NCBI GenBank assembly: GCA_005281725.1
Contig: SSBO01000007.1
Span: forward strand, 5,492,667 to 5,556,666
Direction of reading: 5' to 3'
Length of the DNA stretch: 64,000 nucleotides
DNA from: Wuchereria bancrofti
Taxonomy: Eukaryota > Nematoda > Chromadorea > Rhabditida > Onchocercidae
In this document: positions 1-61,973 of the stretch, piece by piece
Layout of the letters: the number at the start of each line of letters is the position of its first letter
Numbering within the stretch: the first letter of the stretch is position 1
Notes under the pieces: generated by a model
What the model was told of the DNA's origin: nothing
What the model saw: only the letters and a program-made list of their open reading frames with translations
The model's database searches: none
Position numbers and translations under genes: made by a program

Positions 1-3000
1 TCGACTAAATGTCAGCTTTAAATTGAAATTCAGTAAACAATTTTAAAAAAAGTGGAGAGTAAAAGAAATCCGGACTTGTGCTCCTTATGATCCTTTAAAC
101 AGTACATATTTCTATTCATTTAAAGGAATTACTCGGTTAACAATTAAGCACTACTTTAAAACTTCACCTTCAAAAAAAATATTTCAAACACTTTTGAACA
201 TGTAAAATATTAGCAACACAGTGGTTACTGTAACAGGAATGACCTTTTTTACGAGTTTTTCTGTTTTCATTTAACTTCCTTCCCCTTCTTCCTCAACAAA
301 TCCACTTCTGCTTGTTTTTTCTCTATAAATATGAAAGCATGGATTCATTTACATAGCGCTAACATCGCCCCTCTAATCCTTACAACTTACCAAAGACGAT
401 ATTTAGTAGCAATTTAAATTCGTGCCTCTTTATTACTTGAGTAGTTTATTTTATTTCATACTCCGTACTGTTCTATTTCTGGTACTCCTGGAGTCAAATA
501 TTTTTTTTCTTCGTTTCCGAACTATTTTGAACATTTCAAACTTTTGCTGTCTTTTTTTTTCAAATGCTATGCCGGTATTCTGTTCCTATAGTTGTTTCTT
601 GTTTATAATTTTTTAAGGAACTGGTTGCCTTTGCTATATCCACGGCTTTTAAGTGCCTACTTCCCGTTCCCGTATCTTTTTTCATCTTTACCGCCATTGT
701 CACCACTATATATCAATTTTAGGCAAAGGCTTATCCAATGAAATTTCCTTAAATCCATATTATCGAAGACAACCACTATGAAAAGTTGCCAGTACATATC
801 GAAGAATAGCTTCTAAAAAAGAGTTTATTGGTCTTTATTCCTTTAAAATTGCTGACAGTCGATTTATATACGTGCAGTAATCATGTACTGATAATTAATC
901 AGTACATGTACAATAGTTCAGTTAAGTTCTACTGTTTGCTTCACAAAGATTCGACAGAAATTTGACACTGATCTTTTCATTTATTCTTTCTCTCCCTTTC
1001 TCTGTACTTTCTAAGTAACTTCAACTTGGGTTCTTACCTCCACCTTTGTCGTTTGCTTATTTTTAGTTCGAAAAATTTCTACATGATTTTTTGAAGTACA
1101 AATAGTCCAATTTTCAATTGCATTATTCATGCTTCACAGAAAGCACTTTCCCTCGAACCTTCCTTATTTTTAACTTTTATTACCGCCTCGTACAATATGA
1201 ATGCAAACGAATCTGTCAATATCGTTCATACGTGATCTGTTTTCCTAATTTATTTCATTTCATTACGCTTAATGACTAATTATCACCAGTATGACAATGA
1301 TTTCATTTGAAATGTAAATTGTGTTTGAACGCAGAGAAATTCATAGAGTGAACATGTCTTGTCTGAAGTTTTCCCTACAAATGTTAAATGTTCAGTTAAT
1401 TTATTTGAATGTCTGATTATACTATTACGTGGTGAGAAAGGTTTTTATGCGTATGTGGTAATGGTCTTTTTAGCATCAATGGAAATTATATCTTATTGTT
1501 ATCGCAGTACCTTCCATTGACTGTCTGGGTAATTCTTAAGTTTTGCGACTTCTGATATCAGTACATAAAGATGGAGTAAGATAGGCTGGCTAGATGCTTG
1601 TATTGTAAAAAGTTTTTTTTTTCTTTTTTTTTTTTTTTTTTTGATTTAGCATCTGTCTGAAAGGGGAGATTAAAGGAGGATATAAGAAGAGATTGACTTC
1701 TCCATGAATAATTTGCAGAGTGGAATGTTTATTGCCGATTAGTCGATTATTGATAAGATCAATTAGCAGTAACAGGAAAGATGTCGGAGTAAACATAGAT
1801 GAGAGGGAAAGGAGAGAGAGAGAAAATCAGTTTTTTCTTGAATCGCATTATATTCATATCCGTATGCGCTCTATTGAGGAACTATTACACAGCAGTGTTT
1901 TGATATTGTTCTTCTTCATTAAAAAACTTCAAATTTTCTGGGAACTTTCCACCTTATTTGATAAAAAAAGTAATAAAAAAATTGTAACATCGCTGGTTCG
2001 CAGTTTACTATCTTGCAAGACAACCTAATAAAGTAGAGAGTCTGATCTTTGAAATTTGTAGAGTTGAAAAAAATTAAAAACCCTCTTATATGTTGGAAAA
2101 ACCTGATTCAGTGTTGTGATAATTAAACTTCAAGTTTTAAATTTGAAAGATCGGAATCCCGCCTAACTCGAAATAATCTTTACAAAACGAAAGGACGTCT
2201 GATCACGCCAGTCGAAATAAGAAACATTCATTACATTTCCAGTCAGGAAGGTGGCAGGAAATCTCTTGCCGTTATCTTCATAGGAAGTGGAATTAAGAGG
2301 CATGTTTATTTGCTTTTATTATATTTGCATATTTCTATAAACTTTATTTCAATTGAGAATTGCATGTATCAAGTAAACACGTGGGCGTGCTGAATATTCT
2401 GAACGAACGGAGAATGCTTGCCTATTTGTGCCCTTGAAGGACTTGGGAAGAGTAGAATGCCTATTGCTAACTCCAAGTCTGACATAATATTGGTCAATGA
2501 CGTATGGCAAAGAGAGCTCTTTCATTAAAAAGTGATTTTTTTTTTCCTCTTTTGAGAGCAGAAAAAATAAATATAAAAGCTTCATTGCATGAGAGCTTTT
2601 ATTCACGGATGGTTACATCTAGCAAGGGACGGGCGGTTAAGTAAGCGAATGATGTCAACAATTATTACCAACTACACCCAGGCAAGAGTAGGCTCTGTTT
2701 ATTTAACCACTACCAAACTCGATCTCTCACTCTTTTTAAAAAAAACTTTCGATGTTTTTCATCTAGAAAACTTTTCCTTCTTAAGCAACTTTTCATTAGG
2801 AAATTTGAAGAAAAGCCGTATACAGTGACATGTATAAATTGCTTATCCGACTCTCTAAATCATTTCAATTGAATTTTTGAAAATAGGTGGGATTCTCGCT
2901 GGAATATTTATATTTTTTCCACATGTTGAATGAAAAATCCGGTTAAATAAGCTACTTCCCTACAGCTTTCATAAATTTTCGATGAGAGTAGAAGTTCGCA

Positions 3001-4096
3001 GAAATATGAAAGCAAAATTTATTATATATTTTAATTATAAAATATTATTTCGAAATATTAAACTGAAGTACTGCATTAATGATACTTGAATACATGAACA
3101 CTGAGTTAACAACTAATTATTCCTCGGAATGTTCTTCGGAATCTTAAAAAGAGTAAGATTAAAGTTTAGATTGGTTTCAATTCCAGAAAAAATGTGATGA
3201 ATAGATTTTGAATTCTAAATACCGATGTGATGATGAATAGTTGTGGATGGTTGCCATCATTAGCTTACATTGTTACTCGTTTTGTCTCATTTCATTATTT
3301 TTAAGCCTCATAAAGAACCAAAAAATTGAAATGAATGAAAATGGGTGGAACAAAATCGGAAAGAAAAAACGCTTTCAACAGCAAAACGACTGAAATAACA
3401 TGTAGTTCTAGCTTATCTTCATTGCTGCAAAAGAAAAACAAATGAATAACACTGAAAGTTTTCTTTTTTTTCTTTTTGAAATAAATGATGGGAAGGAAAT
3501 GATTTTATGGGATGAATTTGAAGAACAATTAATTAACGGTGATAGTTACAAATGTGGCAAAGTACTTCAAAAATGAATGTAGTAAACAAAACTGAAAAAT
3601 TACTTTCAAGAAAAATGTTGAAATTTAGCTGAAGAATTAGTTATTAATGAAGATTATTCTTCCTGTTAATTTTAAGCATTTAAACTTTATGTGCCTTTTT
3701 AAGCAGTGATTTTGTAGCGATTTTGCAAGACTTTAATTCTAAAAGAATTAGCAGGAAGAATGATGGATTAAATATCACGGCATCACATTGCATCATACAA
3801 AAAAAAAAAGAAAAAACTAAAAGTTATAAATGAAATAGCTAATTCTCACCGATTAAAATTACAAGAGTACGTAGCAGAATATCACTCAGAATTTGTCGAA
3901 TTTAAATGAAAATTTAGGCTATATTTAAACATCAAATACTTCTGAAAAAAAAACGTCATCAGTCTCCTTGAAAATCAAGTTCCAAATTTATTGGAACATT
4001 TAGAAGTAATTCTCCTTATTATCAACCTTGGATAAGTGATCGTTTCAGTAGCAAACTAATCATCGAAATTAAAACTTCAATATCGTTGAAGAAAAA
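1..4096. other. Gene-poor AT-rich stretch
   Basis: No gene is recognised here. The stretch holds a long oligo-T run at about 1612-1642 and AT-rich spacer. A minus-strand open frame at 2349-2606 has reasonable residue diversity near its end but no recognisable domain. The 3' end of the neighbouring E1 beta gene reaches into the right edge: a minus-strand AATAAA poly(A) signal lies at 3992-3987, about 105 bases past that gene's stop codon. Confidence 0.5.
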
Positions 4097-7033
4097 TCAG
4101 TGCTGAAAATCGATTAATTTTTTGATTGCTTCTATTATGCGCCACTTCGTCGGTAGATAAAAGGGTTCGAAAATATGCGGAAATGGTGTATCCCAGCCGC
4201 AAACACGACTGATTGGAGCTTCCAAGTGAAAGAAACATCGTTCCTGAATATTTCAGTATTACCAGGACTAAAGGTGTTGTGAATACAAATATGCTTAAAA
4301 ATTATCTGAATATTCGTTTTCCTAAGACTGGAAAAAAATCCCCCAATTATTAGCCGGGATAAATATTTGGATTTTTTGAAATCAAATTTTCAAATGCAAC
4401 TTTTCACACAAAAAAGTAATCCGTAACAGATAGTTTGTAACAAAAATATACAATTTTCCCACCTGAACTTTCGTTGATATTTCGGCTGCGAATCCGGAAG
4501 TTATGGGTGCTTCGTGAGTTATTATTAGATGACCAGTTTTTTGAACACTCTGAAGTTAATATAGAGAGATGTAAAACCGGCAGTAACATCCTATATTTTG
4601 AAAAAGAAAAACTGACCTATTTCATATGCTCAACAATAGTGCAAATAATAAGTGAAACAGATCATAAATTTAAAAAATTGAACAAACCTTTGCAACCGTA
4701 TCGATATCCCACGGTAAAATGGTTCTCAAATCAATCACTTCACAACTGACACCAATTTCTTCCTCAACGACTTTCGCAGCATCAAGTGCAACGTGTAACT
4801 GAGTACCCCAGCTAACAACTGTTATATCTTTCCCTGAAAATTAAGATACTTTCAATGTATCGTGATATCATATCATAACATCCATCATACCTTGGAAAAC
4901 ATTAAATTAAAAAGCGATAAGTAATGTATGAGGTTGATAACCTTTATGAAATAAAAGCAGCTTTACATTTTTATGAACTAATTCATGAAGAATGAACAAA
5001 AGTTTGTAAAGCATAAAATCGTAACATCGTGTAATGAATAAATAGATCGTTGAATATACTCTTTAGGATAATGCATTCTAAAAAAAATTTTTTTTCAAAC
5101 CTTCTTTGACTACTTCAGCTTGTTCAAGTTCAGTCTCATAATCTCCGATCGGAACGTCTTCAACTGCTGCACGATACAGTAATTTTGGCTCAAAAAATAT
5201 ACATGGATTCTCGTTTCGAATGCATGACAACAGTAAACCTTTCGCTTGAATCGGTCCACGTGGAACCACTACCTTAAACATAATTCCTTATGTTCTCTCA
5301 GTCAAGAAGTTTCTGAAACAAACAAAATATAAACTGATAGATTTATGCTTAGGAATTCAAAATATTGAAATGCAGCACGAAATGTAAAAATAACTGTTTT
5401 GCATTTAAATTACAATATTGACTTTTGAAGTTTTACTTACACTGTCAACATTTGAATTATGCTTAATATTAAAAAGAATCACTTTATCTTAAAAAATGAA
5501 ATGGATGATAATTCTGAAAGCGATTAGCAGATGCTTGCAAGACTTCCAACAAACAATTTATACCTTTAGACCTGGCGTATGTGTGAAATAAGCTTCAGGG
5601 CTTTGTGAATGATAGAGACCGCCATGACCTACAGCACCCCACGTTGCTCTTATTGTCAATTTCCCGCAGTTAAATAAATTTCCACTTCTATACCGATACT
5701 TGGCTGCTTCGTTCACAATCTAGAAACACAATAATGAAAGGATATCGTAAATTGATAAGCTATCTGCAATACTTCGTAAGTTCAATTTTAACCAGACTAA
5801 ACTGATTAATCCAGATTAAATGAGGAAATGAAGCTACCATTATGTACCATCATTAGCATAAAGCTTACTGTACCTCTTTCTGTCTTAACAATCTATACTT
5901 CATGAAATGAAAAGAGATTAAGTTCAGAGTGGAATCAAGATATATTACCTGATCGAAAGCTGGGAATATGTAATCAGCAAATTGTATTTCTGCAATGGCT
6001 GTCGAACCGCAAACTGCCAAACCGATGCCGAAACCAGCTATTCCTTGCTCACAAATAGGTGTATTAAAAACACGATCTTTGCCTGTAAAAATTAATGTAT
6101 GCCTTAGATTTGAATCATATGAAGTGAAATGAAACACTTTTAAATAACGATTTTTGAAAATAAGGATTTCAAAAACATTTTTAAATACTTTTAAAAAGCA
6201 TTACAATTTTCTATCTAAATATTTCATTGATGCACTACCAATAGCAGAAATTTAAATATATGTATTTTAAAAGCGGTCATGTAATCCTGGCAACGTTTTA
6301 TGATTTTGGTTTTATGGCAGTGTTTTATCCTGGTACAACGTTTTATTTAATTCTTCATAAAAGGATTAAATAAAAGTCCGTCTGCAATGAAATCAAATGC
6401 TGTTTTAAAAATTCCTTCAATTTCGCTCCATTTAAATTATATCTATTTTTGCATTATTAAAGATGAAATTCCGCTAGTAATCAAACTTTTTAATGCATTG
6501 AAAAGTGTACAGAAATCCATTGAACTATGTGAAATAAGCTCAATTTTCAGTTTCAATTAAACCCTAATCAATAAATATGATAGTTTGCATTTAATAACAG
6601 TGCAAATCAACAGACCATACTTCGCCTGTAAGCCAATGGTACATCGGAAAACACCACCAAATGCAACATCCTCGCCGAAAAGACATGTGGATGAGTCACT
6701 TCCCATAGCGATATCTATTGCATTGTTGATCGCTTGGCATAGATTCATCCTGCTTATTTCACCTGAACTTTTGCAATTACGGAAATAACCGGAATGAAGT
6801 AAATCAGTGAATTATGGATAATTAAATCTCTTTTTACTACTAGATGAAATATTCCATGAGCATCTGCCAATATGTAAACTAATTCAATCATTTTTGTAAA
6901 AATGAAAGAAAGCAACAAAACCATGTGAAGGATCTGCTTGGCTGGGGACAAATGTAATTCCTGATGCATATCGTATCGAAGGGATTTTTATGAGATTTAT
7001 CAATGATTTGATAACATATCCTGTTGTTGCCAT
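4097..7033 (-). CDS. BCKDHB: Branched-chain 2-oxoacid dehydrogenase E1 component, beta subunit (mitochondrial)
   Basis: This is the beta subunit of the thiamine-dependent E1 decarboxylase of the mitochondrial branched-chain 2-oxoacid dehydrogenase complex, which acts on the keto acids from Leu, Ile and Val. Eight exons join in phase: 7033-6922, 6762-6616, 6082-5949, 5719-5564, 5272-5101, 4833-4688, 4549-4463 and 4243-4097. They give 366 aa, against about 390 in vertebrates. The first 37 residues ([11 protein letters not shown]...) lack acidic residues at the extreme N-terminus and look like a mitochondrial targeting peptide. Family hallmarks are [66 protein letters not shown] and [16 protein letters not shown]. 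These separate it from pyruvate dehydrogenase E1 beta. The start is the only ATG giving a targeting peptide in phase with exon 2. A poly(A) signal lies about 105 bases after the stop. The exon 5 acceptor (TTTAAG) is slightly weak. Otherwise the model has no lesion. Confidence 0.95.
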
Positions 7034-7599: not shown

Positions 7600-7827
7600 C
7601 TTACTCTGTGGGTAAAGAGCTAATGCTTGCCCGATGTGCCATGCCGAATGTCATCTGAGACAAAGCATTAGCATTCATTCATTCATTCATTCATTCATTC
7701 ATTCATTCATTCATTCATTCATTCATTCATTCATTCATTCGAACAGACATTGTTGCAGGGTTAGATTTTCTATAAAATTATTGGAAAGCTTTCCCTGGAA
7801 ACTTTCTGTTTCAATTAGAATTTATAA
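7600..7827. repeat. Left copy of 228-base direct duplication flanking the N gap
   Basis: Positions 7600-7827 and 7839-8066 are the same sequence, including the ATTC microsatellite and its unique flanks, and are separated only by the run of N at 7828-7838. Identity over the whole length and the position against a gap point to two unmerged contig ends rather than a biological duplication. Confidence 0.9.
7672..7741. repeat. (ATTC)n tetranucleotide microsatellite, left copy
   Basis: About 17 perfect ATTC units. Read in one frame they give an artificial Ser-Phe-Ile-His repeat, which is not a protein. The same array recurs at 7911-7980 in the right copy. Confidence 0.97.
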
Positions 7828-7838
7828 NNNNNNNNNNN
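7828..7838. other. Assembly gap (11 N)
   Basis: A run of 11 undetermined bases, with the sequence on its left repeated exactly on its right. Confidence 0.99.
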
Positions 7839-8066
7839 CTTACTCTGTGGGTAAAGAGCTAATGCTTGCCCGATGTGCCATGCCGAATGTCATCTGAGAC
7901 AAAGCATTAGCATTCATTCATTCATTCATTCATTCATTCATTCATTCATTCATTCATTCATTCATTCATTCATTCATTCGAACAGACATTGTTGCAGGGT
8001 TAGATTTTCTATAAAATTATTGGAAAGCTTTCCCTGGAAACTTTCTGTTTCAATTAGAATTTATAA
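7839..8066. repeat. Right copy of 228-base direct duplication flanking the N gap
   Basis: Identical to 7600-7827. It includes a second ATTC array at 7911-7980. Confidence 0.9.
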
Positions 8067-59129: not shown

Positions 59130-61973
59130 CTAAAGCTCATCCTTAGCAAATATTGGTAGAACGGCTGGTTCTCCTTGCAGTATTTCGTCAGCTCGGTCAA
59201 TTTCCTGCAATAAAAATTAAAGAAATACTTACAATCGATCGTTTCAACTTATCAATTTACAGGGATAATGAAGACTTTGATTTGTTTAAGATAACTATGA
59301 AATAATATTAAGAATAACGTACCGAGACAGAAACAATGCCATCATTATTAAAATCTAGAATCCAAGCAATCGATGGATCACGTTTCCGACCTTCTAGCTT
59401 TTTATCATTCGCTACTGCAGCCATTACCGCCATATCTCGTCCCATTACCCGGCGAAATTCCATCGAATCTATCCGTCCGTTTCTATCGACATCGAAATAT
59501 CTGCAAAAAATTTTCCGTTTTTTTTTTCTTTTTGTGAGTTTAGTTTTTGTGATCAATATTATTCGATATTGATGCGTTTCTTTAGTGCAGCTGCATGCAA
59601 TGGATAGCAGTTGGCTGAAATAGCTAACACTTGGATTGTTTAAAGTTTTGTTCAGGGATGAATTTTAAACATCTAAAGCAACTACCTCATATAATATCTG
59701 GCGGCATTCATGTAATCAATATTTTCATTTCTCCATGTTTTGCCAAAATTTTTCTTCAGGTTTTCTTGAAATTTAACCAACTAAAACATTATTTTGAAAA
59801 ACGTGGTTCAAAAATAAAATTTCTGGAAATAGAACTGATTATTTCCGGTTCTATTCATTTCGACAAGAACTTTTAACCATACAACAAGGCAGTTCTTTAA
59901 TCAACGCAAATGCAATTATGAAAAAGTTCGGTGGAAAAATCATCAATTTCATAAATACTGATTTTTTGTGAAGTAATGAACTGATAATAGATGAAGTAGA
60001 AATGATAATTTTTGACATTGATTTGCAATAATAATTTAGTTAAAACCTCATTTTCAGTAAGTATTGTATCGTTGTTAATATCTAGAAAGTTGAATTGCAA
60101 ATCGAGTGACCACGGCTCAACAGTAAGCATTTCAATGTTAAAAATAAGCCAGTGCTCATCGTTGGGAATATTTTTCCATACTGAAAAATTAATTCTAAAT
60201 ATGAGTGGGAACAGAATATTCGTTTGTTGTTAAATACTGGAATGGCCAAGAATATATTTTAATACTTTACATCTTCCGCCGATTCAGTCATACTTCTTTT
60301 GTGCAACTAATGAAAGTTGTTTAATCAGATAATTTCCAGCTGATGAAATTTAAAAACTTTTTGACAAAATGAAACACAGCAGAGTGGTAGGATTTTTTCA
60401 AAGACTGACAATTTGCGAATAATTGCGCACGTAATGAATAGAATATTACGCAGGGATGACTAAGTAAGTATTGAAATATTCATTGTTAAAGTGAATACAT
60501 CACTTATCACCTCATACAATATTTGTTTGCATGCAATAGAAATAGCGTTTGAACGCTTATTTGTCCTATAAATTGATAAAATGATAGAGCAAAGCCTTTA
60601 CCAACGCGGGTAAGCGGCGGGAGTAACTATAACGCTTAGGGTAGCCAAATACTTCCTCATCTAATTCATGATGCACTTGAAGGGATTAACGAGATTCCCG
60701 CGGTCTCTATCTAGTACTTGGTGAAACCACAGCCAGGAAACGGGCATGGCAAACATAACGGAGAAAAAAGACCTTGTTGAGCTCAATAAAGAGTTATCTC
60801 GGCAAGAAATTCATATATTCAGTTGAATGAATTTAACAAGCACAGATTAAGACAATGAAAGTGAATAAATTCACTAAATTCAAAATCAACTATCCTACTA
60901 ATATCCATCAATAATTAAGCTTACCTTTGCTTTTCTTTTTCCTGCTTAACCGATATGGAACATGAATTTTCCTTAATTCAGTGTCGCACATCCCACGCAT
61001 ACCTTTGTCTAATCCAGGTATTATCATGCCTACGCCAAGTTGTATTCGAATCGGTTCACGTCCATATGACTGATCACATTTTTTATTAGCTTCAGTGAAT
61101 GCTTTATAGTGAAATGTTATGAAATCTTTACGTTTCGCAGCACGTGGACAGTTCACTGGTCGCCATGTTTTTTCGACCTGAAATTTATGATAAATTCATC
61201 TAGATAAGCAAATTTATAACTTTTAAATATATAGATTAAATATAAACAGAATAGGCGAAAATAGAAGGACTATGCTTTTTTTTGTCATTCTTCTGATAAT
61301 CGACGAATCCACTGATACATAAAACAAAGGGTTTTCAACAAGAATTTCTTAATGAGAGGGTGGCATCAACAGAAAAGCAATAATATGAAATGTGAACAAT
61401 GCGTTAATTTCATATTCGGGCATCCGAATATGCATTTTTCATCTGAAAAAGATTGATCAACTTTGACCTTGATATCAAGTGGGCCACCATTCGCCATTTC
61501 CTCAAGCTGTCTTATTTGCGCTGCGGTCATCGGTTGGCCTTCACCACGTATTTCAATTACTGGTATACTGTCTTCAAGTTTTCGTTTCTTTCCGACGTCA
61601 TACACAATCGGTGTTTCCGTCTCAACAACATCTGAACATAGACCTGAAATTTTAGCATTTTAAAAGAATAAAAGACGAAATAATAAATCCTTTTCCGAGG
61701 ATGTCTTCGGTTTCTACAACAAGAGTGATTTGCCATAATTAATACGGCATGATTAAACTATCTTTACATTCATCAAAAAGCTCAATAATCTCACTTTGAG
61801 TTCATCTCTTCCATTTTCCCTATTTCTTCCAACCTATAATGGATTTCTTCACTATATTCAGGTTTACAAGAAACGGAATTTTTTTTTGCATCATAAATTG
61901 CGGTGAAAATTGGTTTACCTGGTAAAAATATGAAGGTTATGAGGAAGGCTTGGACAAGTAGAGTCTGGAACAT
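59130..61973 (-). CDS. ER-resident FKBP-type peptidyl-prolyl isomerase with EF-hands and KDEL
   Basis: This is a lumenal ER foldase related to vertebrate FKBP7/FKBP14. Seven exons join in phase: 61973-61919, 61643-61468, 61177-60925, 60180-60047, 59780-59686, 59500-59323 and 59204-59130, giving 321 aa. Residues 1-18 (MFQTLLVQAFLITFIFLP) form a signal peptide. A charged segment precedes the FKBP domain at about 78-205, which has FHYKAF, IQLGVGMIIPGLDKGMRGMC and HWLIFNIEML. EF-hand-like loops follow: DINNDTILTENE, the canonical DVDRNGRIDSME, and DFNNDGIVSVEI, which lacks the usual acidic residue at position 12. The protein ends FAKDEL. Against FKBP12, the pocket residues Phe36, Phe46, Trp59 and Tyr82 appear replaced by Cys, Ile, Leu and a non-Tyr residue, while Tyr26, Asp37, Ile56 and Phe99 remain. 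Isomerase activity may therefore be weak. The 744-base intron 60181-60924 contains the 28S-like fragment. Confidence 0.93.
60592..60800 (+). pseudogene. Diverged fragment of eukaryotic 28S rRNA gene within an intron
   Basis: About 200 bases align by eye, in order, with the highly conserved core of eukaryotic large-subunit rRNA that spans the R1/R2 retroelement insertion region. Landmarks in the window, in order, are CGCGGGTAAGCGGCGGGAGT, GGTAGCCAAAT, CTCATCTAATT, GGGATTAACGAGATTCCC, GAAACCACAGCC, ACGGGCATGGCAAA and GACCTTGTTGAGCT. Between them are many substitutions and small indels. For example, the usual CTCTCTTAAGG before TAGCC is altered and shortened. The pattern is eukaryotic (GGGAGTAACTAT, AGCCAAAT, GATTAACGAGATTCCC), not bacterial 23S. 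It lies antisense to the FKBP transcript, wholly inside its third intron. It is too short and too diverged to be functional rRNA. The flanks show no recognisable retroelement. Confidence 0.85.

Follow-up and report, generated by a model that had tools for sequence, protein, structure and literature searches.

A decayed 28S rRNA fragment in an FKBP gene intron of Wuchereria bancrofti and recurrent 3' ends among dispersed rRNA fragments

Results

A decayed 28S rRNA fragment antisense to an FKBP gene

The locus lies in a window of 64,000 nucleotides (the whole stretch of W. bancrofti DNA analysed here) and is occupied, on the minus strand, by a gene encoding an FKBP that ends in KDEL. One intron of this gene holds a fragment of 28S rRNA in antisense orientation, with FKBP exons on both sides (Table 1), and the reading frames of these flanking exons bear out the intronic, antisense placement given in the initial annotation. 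Within the exons read, the FKBPs of B. pahangi and W. bancrofti differ at six sites (H/R, V/I, V/M, I/M, E/G and S/N); all six carry the Wuchereria residue in the window, and we accordingly take the host to be W. bancrofti. A chimeric contig was rejected because exons of one filarial gene flank the fragment on both sides.

Table 1. Positions of the rRNA fragment and of the surrounding FKBP gene parts in the window
Feature	Position	Strand	Basis or remark
Decayed 28S rRNA fragment	60600..60783	+	Corresponds to host rDNA unit 5508-5695; Rfam and alignment to host 28S
Altered, shortened R2-target block	60633..60646	+	Coordinates by eye
FKBP intron holding the fragment, 744 bases	60181..60924	-	Splice sites by eye, exon frames
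FKBP-domain exon upstream of the intron	60925..61177	-	Reading frame, protein match; limits by eye
Exon downstream of the intron, VWKNIP...TENE	60047..60180	-	Reading frame, protein match; limits by eye
Further exon of the FKBP gene, reads LVKFQENLKKNFGKTWRNENIDYMNAARYYM	59688..59780 (approximate)	-	Protein comparison

The Rfam model LSU_rRNA_eukarya matched the fragment with 52.8 bits (E = 1.7e-11 in 801 bases; gathering score 50), and BLAST aligned it with the host's own 28S at 83.5% identity over 188 columns (E = 8e-46), both far above chance, so that the co-linear 28S segment of the initial annotation is real. Its best-fit limits, from which the low-posterior part of the Rfam alignment upstream of 60600 was left out, are narrower than the 60592-60800 initially proposed. 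Realignment to the host 28S gave 85% identity over 184 aligned bases. At several sites the copy keeps host letters where the Rfam consensus differs (by eye, AUUC for AUUa, CUAU for CUAc, and GGCAAACA where the consensus has GGaAccau), which, in a comparison confined to these two references (the host 28S and the Rfam model), is consistent with descent from the rRNA of this lineage. Judged by its sequence, the window copy is nuclear 28S rRNA of this worm's lineage, in a decayed state. The 27 substitutions among the 184 aligned bases comprise 15 GC>AT, eight AT>GC and four other changes, an excess of GC>AT, and the Rfam alignment shows non-standard bases at several consensus pairs. As far as can be told from such features, the copy appears dead, with no support for function.

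The R2-target block reads CGCTTAGGGTAGCC in the window copy and CTCTTAAGGTAGCC, preceded by two further bases, in the host; the copy is thus two bases shorter, and the motif is altered and shortened as had been reported. That the fragment overlaps the R1/R2 target appears to be incidental. A whole-window Rfam scan at the gathering threshold listed no rRNA in the window, not even the 28S fragment, in agreement with the description of a fragment that has no rDNA around it. A plasmid search matched bacterial records weakly (70% at best, E = 2e-3), and we take these hits to be bacterial rRNA.

Dispersed rRNA and rDNA fragments across the genome

The fragment had been described as solitary, a claim that the genome overturned. 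In the searched assembly (86,486,585 bases in 108 contigs, where match counts are lower bounds), at least nine matches to the window copy were obtained: its own locus, two rDNA array units, a 28S copy of 2 kb on C7 and five short dispersed copies. The rDNA was located at C1:5.46 Mb and the 2-kb piece at C7:4.80 Mb. Five rDNA stretches used as queries returned many further short dispersed matches, dozens of them to other parts of the rDNA, and a solitary insertion was rejected on account of the many dispersed copies across the genome. Most of these loci were fetched with their flanks. All unit positions below refer to a reference rDNA unit assembled from L010 and L009.

Seed selection was manual, as was the joining of pieces at some loci, and several multi-piece loci (e.g. 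L046, L052, L073) were seeded in part. Four duplicates, L083(+), L090, L049 and L076, were dropped, which reduced 85 rows to 81; L031 (a duplicate of L030) and L060 (the same stretch as L014) were unused, and the rDNA array and L011 were left out of the survey. Loci L095-L098 and part of L028 were omitted as a common dispersed repeat, and nine further matches to part of ITS2 lie outside the set; dispersed repeats dominated the spacer search and the search upstream of 18S.

In all, 81 rRNA/rDNA fragments dispersed over 77 loci were mapped, a lower bound for the genome, with unit spans of 42-1933 nt and identities of 73-100%. It includes six fragments of ITS1, three of 5.8S and five of ITS2, two of the latter (L081 and L082) overlapping the dispersed repeat, and coverage of ITS1, 5.8S and ITS2 is about as dense as that of much of the mature rRNA.

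Several features of the assembled rDNA were observed alongside. L011 (5968-8017; C7:4.80 Mb) is an isolated 2-kb 3' half of 28S, 95-96% identical to the array, that continues for 38-116 nt beyond the 28S 3' end, the figure varying with the array unit compared. A second assembled 28S (L010, 2126-5475) is missing its 5' portion and is fused to a piece of 18S, representing a rearranged or mis-assembled unit. Part of ITS2 (L009 ~7690-7860, L028, L082, L095-L098) matches a dispersed repeat whose copies are ~79-94% identical to one another and which may be a small mobile element residing in the host ITS2. Two other dispersed repeats adjoin the genes: one of ~430 bases upstream of 18S in the assembled unit (L010 ~1230-1700), with dozens of genomic matches, and one of ~240 bases beyond the 28S 3' end (L009, within 2300-3787), with ~40 scored genomic matches.

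Two zones of recurrent 3' ends

Among the 81 fragments, whose ends rest on one alignment scoring, clustering is confined to the 3' ends. We found 60 pairs of 3' ends lying within 8 nt of each other, against 13 pairs of 5' ends. Upon jittering by up to 40 nt, a test that takes all ends together, the mean was 21.3 pairs for 3' ends, with 60 reached in 0 of 5000 trials, and 12.2 pairs for 5' ends (p = 0.44); a two-sided end-swap test gave p = 0.00015.

Two zones, selected after looking at the ends, account for 16 of the 81 fragments, all truncated at defined 3' positions. Nine fragments end at unit 766-770 in 18S (...ACCTTGAAAA; also written ...TTTACCTTGAA(A)n), and seven, the window copy among them, end within a 13-nt zone at unit 5692-5704 in 28S (near ...CTGTTGAGCTTGA...). 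None of the 81 has its 5' start within 15 nt of either zone. The 18S zone is crossed by at least 40 nt on both sides by two fragments, L056 and L073, and the 28S zone by none of the 81; smaller margins are seen in L014 (745-883) and L072 (to 777) at the 18S zone, and in L022 (from 5664 or 5675) and L014 (to 5702 or 5720, depending on the aligner) past the 28S point. The 28S piece of L014 and L025 lie in the 28S region, yet outside the 28S-zone count. Clustering is absent from the remaining 65 fragments (4 pairs of 3' ends versus 5.2 expected, 5 pairs of 5' ends versus 5.3 expected). In the Rfam structures, most of the 28S zone falls within consensus-paired columns, and the 18S zone within a long unpaired stretch. 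Priming at A-runs was considered as a sole cause of the clusters; the A-runs at unit 2121, 2597, 2771 and 3809, which are longer, lack any accumulation of 3' ends.

Flanks, tails and target-site repeats of the copies

The flanks of the zone copies are largely unrelated: an all-against-all comparison of the 16 (E 1e-8) revealed no shared flank beyond two short exceptions, L063/L068, in which the match continues for ~38-50 AT-rich bases, and L062/L068, with ~19 bases outside the rRNA. The comparison did detect true duplicates (L030/L031, L045/L049, L057/L076, L083/L090 and L097/L098), L057/L076 at 71% identity over 635 bases. Identity to the host 28S is 97-99% for L013 and L016 and 82-85% for the window copy, L015 and L021; the 73-100% range of the whole set indicates repeated events, spread over time. 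Counting against full independence, L015 and L021 have seven substitutions in common, and a G>A change at unit 5674, within a G-run, occurs in five of the seven covering copies (window, L012, L013, L015 and L032), one of them at 97% identity.

None of the seven 28S-zone copies, the window copy included, carries an oligo(A) tail. The copies of the 18S zone stop at an A-run internal to the rRNA (15 A in L091, nine in L089), where a tail would be indistinguishable. The window copy has no target-site duplication of 5 or more bases. Target-site-like repeats of at least 6 bases flank 7 of 85 rows (2.1 expected, p = 0.007), most clearly L072 (14 bp), L032 (11 bp) and L052 (7 bp), three of the seven being simple repeats (L036, L040) or an A-run (L091). 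Internal stretches are missing from L016 (5667-5677), L089 and L083, which fits template skipping and ordinary deletion alike. At 18S unit 1200, a strongly modified base where reverse transcription might introduce errors, T is kept in all four covering copies, so that nothing at this base points to RNA as the template of these background copies. In L037 (C12:19712970-19714936), positions 500-1467 hold 18S-ITS1-5.8S (-) head-to-head with 28S (+), the 5' ends meeting, an arrangement suggestive of twin priming or of repair from two ends. U2 retropseudogenes were considered as a further class of RNA copies; at least four matches, one of them diverged, were obtained (46 scored of 7877 candidates).

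Discussion

Origin of the window copy

We favour, with moderate confidence, the view that the window copy is a dead, 5'-truncated 28S copy that was reverse transcribed from a defined rRNA 3' end, inserted into the intron and then decayed. An rRNA piece ending at unit 5692-5704 would have been reverse transcribed from that end, cDNA synthesis would have halted at a variable point, leaving scattered 5' ends, and the DNA would have been joined into a chromosomal break or nick in the intron, to decay in place thereafter. The same process would have taken place at least six more times for the 28S zone and nine times for the 18S zone. Fixed 3' ends combined with variable 5' ends, oriented along the RNA, suggest reverse transcription from a defined end, and we infer an RNA intermediate, a reverse transcriptase and a joining step. 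The lack of a tail and of a visible target-site duplication at the window copy counts against this view. Of the three origins that the initial annotation had offered, a retrocopy of an rRNA fragment is accordingly the best supported, the 3' zone being common to six other copies with varying 5' ends.

The main competitor requires no RNA step: broken pieces of rDNA would have been joined into double-strand breaks, as happens with mitochondrial and endosymbiont DNA. Such capture is compatible with the existence of ITS1 and ITS2 fragments, with the extension of L011 past the 28S 3' end, with mosaic loci of mixed orientation (L037, L076) and with the dearth of target-site repeats at most copies, young ones too. 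A two-sided DNA break, however, should leave both sides, hence the clustering of 3' ends only, with not a single start near either zone, speaks against it, and we regard it as a possible but rather unlikely source of the window copy. We read the two zones as RNA-templated and the other 65 fragments as captured rDNA or pre-rRNA, which would have been cut at random and would form a background alongside the zones. These unclustered fragments, together with the spacer coverage, indicate that simple capture of rDNA or pre-rRNA is at work as well and could account for the window copy.

Repeated use of one 3' zone could also be expected of a SINE-like family, in which an rRNA-derived RNA gene spreads its own copies, and SINEs headed by 28S sequence are described from a bird and mammals (PMC4844689). 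The recurrent change at 5674 and the substitutions common to L015 and L021 point the same way. The all-against-all comparison, however, found neither a non-rRNA body nor a tail in common, and the 97-99% identity of L013 and L016 to the host 28S places the source at the rRNA itself or very near it. A SINE family, which we consider very improbable, was rejected for want of a shared composite body with a LINE tail.

Elements specific to rDNA occur in nematodes, and the initial annotation had proposed transfer together with a target-specific retroelement, of which the copy would be a leftover that carried 28S flank (R1, R2 or R4). The window copy does span the R2 motif, and L013, alone among the copies, has its start 3-4 nt away from the R2 cut point, which we place at unit 5554. 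No target-site junction with an attached element, as in an R2-type product, was found; inspection of the copies and their borders brought no element sequence to notice, the common 3' zone is situated ~150 nt beyond the R2 motif, 18S has an equal zone of its own, and the LINE endonuclease model PF14529, a search of limited sensitivity, had 0 matches in the genome. With no element sequence seen at the copies and the zone off the R2 site, an R-element remnant was rejected as scarcely credible. Retention as a functional antisense RNA or regulatory element of the FKBP intron, the exaptation initially suggested, has the antisense position alone in its favour and was rejected as equally implausible, given that GC>AT-biased decay, non-standard pairs and many equivalent decayed copies elsewhere all argue against it.

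Candidate enzymes

A profile search with RVT_1 gave 58 matches (best 54.9 bits), all beginning at profile position 37 or later. Pfam annotation of six open frames showed, beside RVT_1, a Pao peptidase in five and DUF5641 in one. No LINE was identified among the RVT_1 and PF14529 matches, and reported AviRTE copies went unrecognised too; since the searches miss published copies, they are too insensitive to prove absence. The nematode genomes that hold AviRTE (Brugia, Wuchereria, Loa) carry 273-859 copies, and the full-length copies are reported to be all broken (PMC4844689). In flowering plants, LINEs of the RTE clade terminate in (TTG)n or (TTGATG)n (PMC3747384), and (C/G)TTGA is present in both 3' zones. 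By analogy, an RTE such as AviRTE may mistake internal TTGA-type motifs for its own tail. The unit contains 64 TTGA sites and enrichment at the 65 other fragments is not clear (7 versus 4.2 expected), so this idea stays a lead. Alternatively, the two ends may mark physiologically cut, stable rRNA fragments.

Implications

The window copy alone is ordinary genomic debris, for which no R2 or exaptation story at the FKBP intron is needed any longer; the part worth following is the pair of 3' ends that recur genome-wide. We propose only tentatively that in the filarial germ line two rRNA 3' ends (18S ~768 and 28S ~5696) repeatedly start reverse transcription by a non-L1 enzyme. The recurrent ends would be a trace of germ-line rRNA pieces that were reverse transcribed; under either explanation, an RTE or physiologically cut fragments, retroposition of the tailless type would extend outside vertebrates, and rRNA cleavage would be recorded in DNA. 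In practice, rRNA-based probes and read mapping in the W. bancrofti genome will meet pseudogenes.

Comparison with known systems

Among the titles and abstract openings listed from the open-licence rRNA/rDNA pseudogene literature, a two-zone 3'-end pattern in a nematode was not found. The window copy has the properties of dispersed nuclear rRNA/rDNA pseudogenes, lying outside the array and being degraded. The 28S region 3,636-4,115, a frequent source of pieces fused to LINE-1, presumably includes the part seen in the window copy. In such 28S/LINE-1 chimeras, pieces of 50-482 nt derive most often from that region of a 5,035-nt consensus, and, unlike in the filarial copies, where the 3' end recurs, they are fused to LINE-1 and it is the start point that recurs (PMC13174262).

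The nearest known kind is that of the tailless retropseudogenes, which are reported among vertebrates only from therian mammals and one lizard (anole) and were not found in platypus or chicken (PMC5322556). They are tied to L1, derive from many kinds of RNA, have truncation points in single-stranded RNA and were selected for target-site repeats; human 5'-truncated tailless forms listed there include ten from 28S and two from 18S (PMC5322556). The filarial copies resemble them in the absence of a tail and in truncation at defined internal 3' positions, but differ in that the host is a nematode, rRNA alone was studied in depth, two 3' zones dominate, target-site repeats are mostly absent and no LINE was identified in limited searches (PMC5322556). 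The 28S-derived SINEs (budgerigar MeloSINE and a mammalian SINE) likewise consist in part of 28S-derived sequence and spread by retroposition, but form families with a common body and a LINE tail, neither of which is seen in the filarial copies (PMC4844689). Filamentous ascomycetes, like the filarial worm, hold divergent, dead rRNA copies in one genome; theirs, however, are paralogues of the rDNA repeat decayed by RIP, whereas the filarial set consists of short dispersed fragments (PMC5555474).
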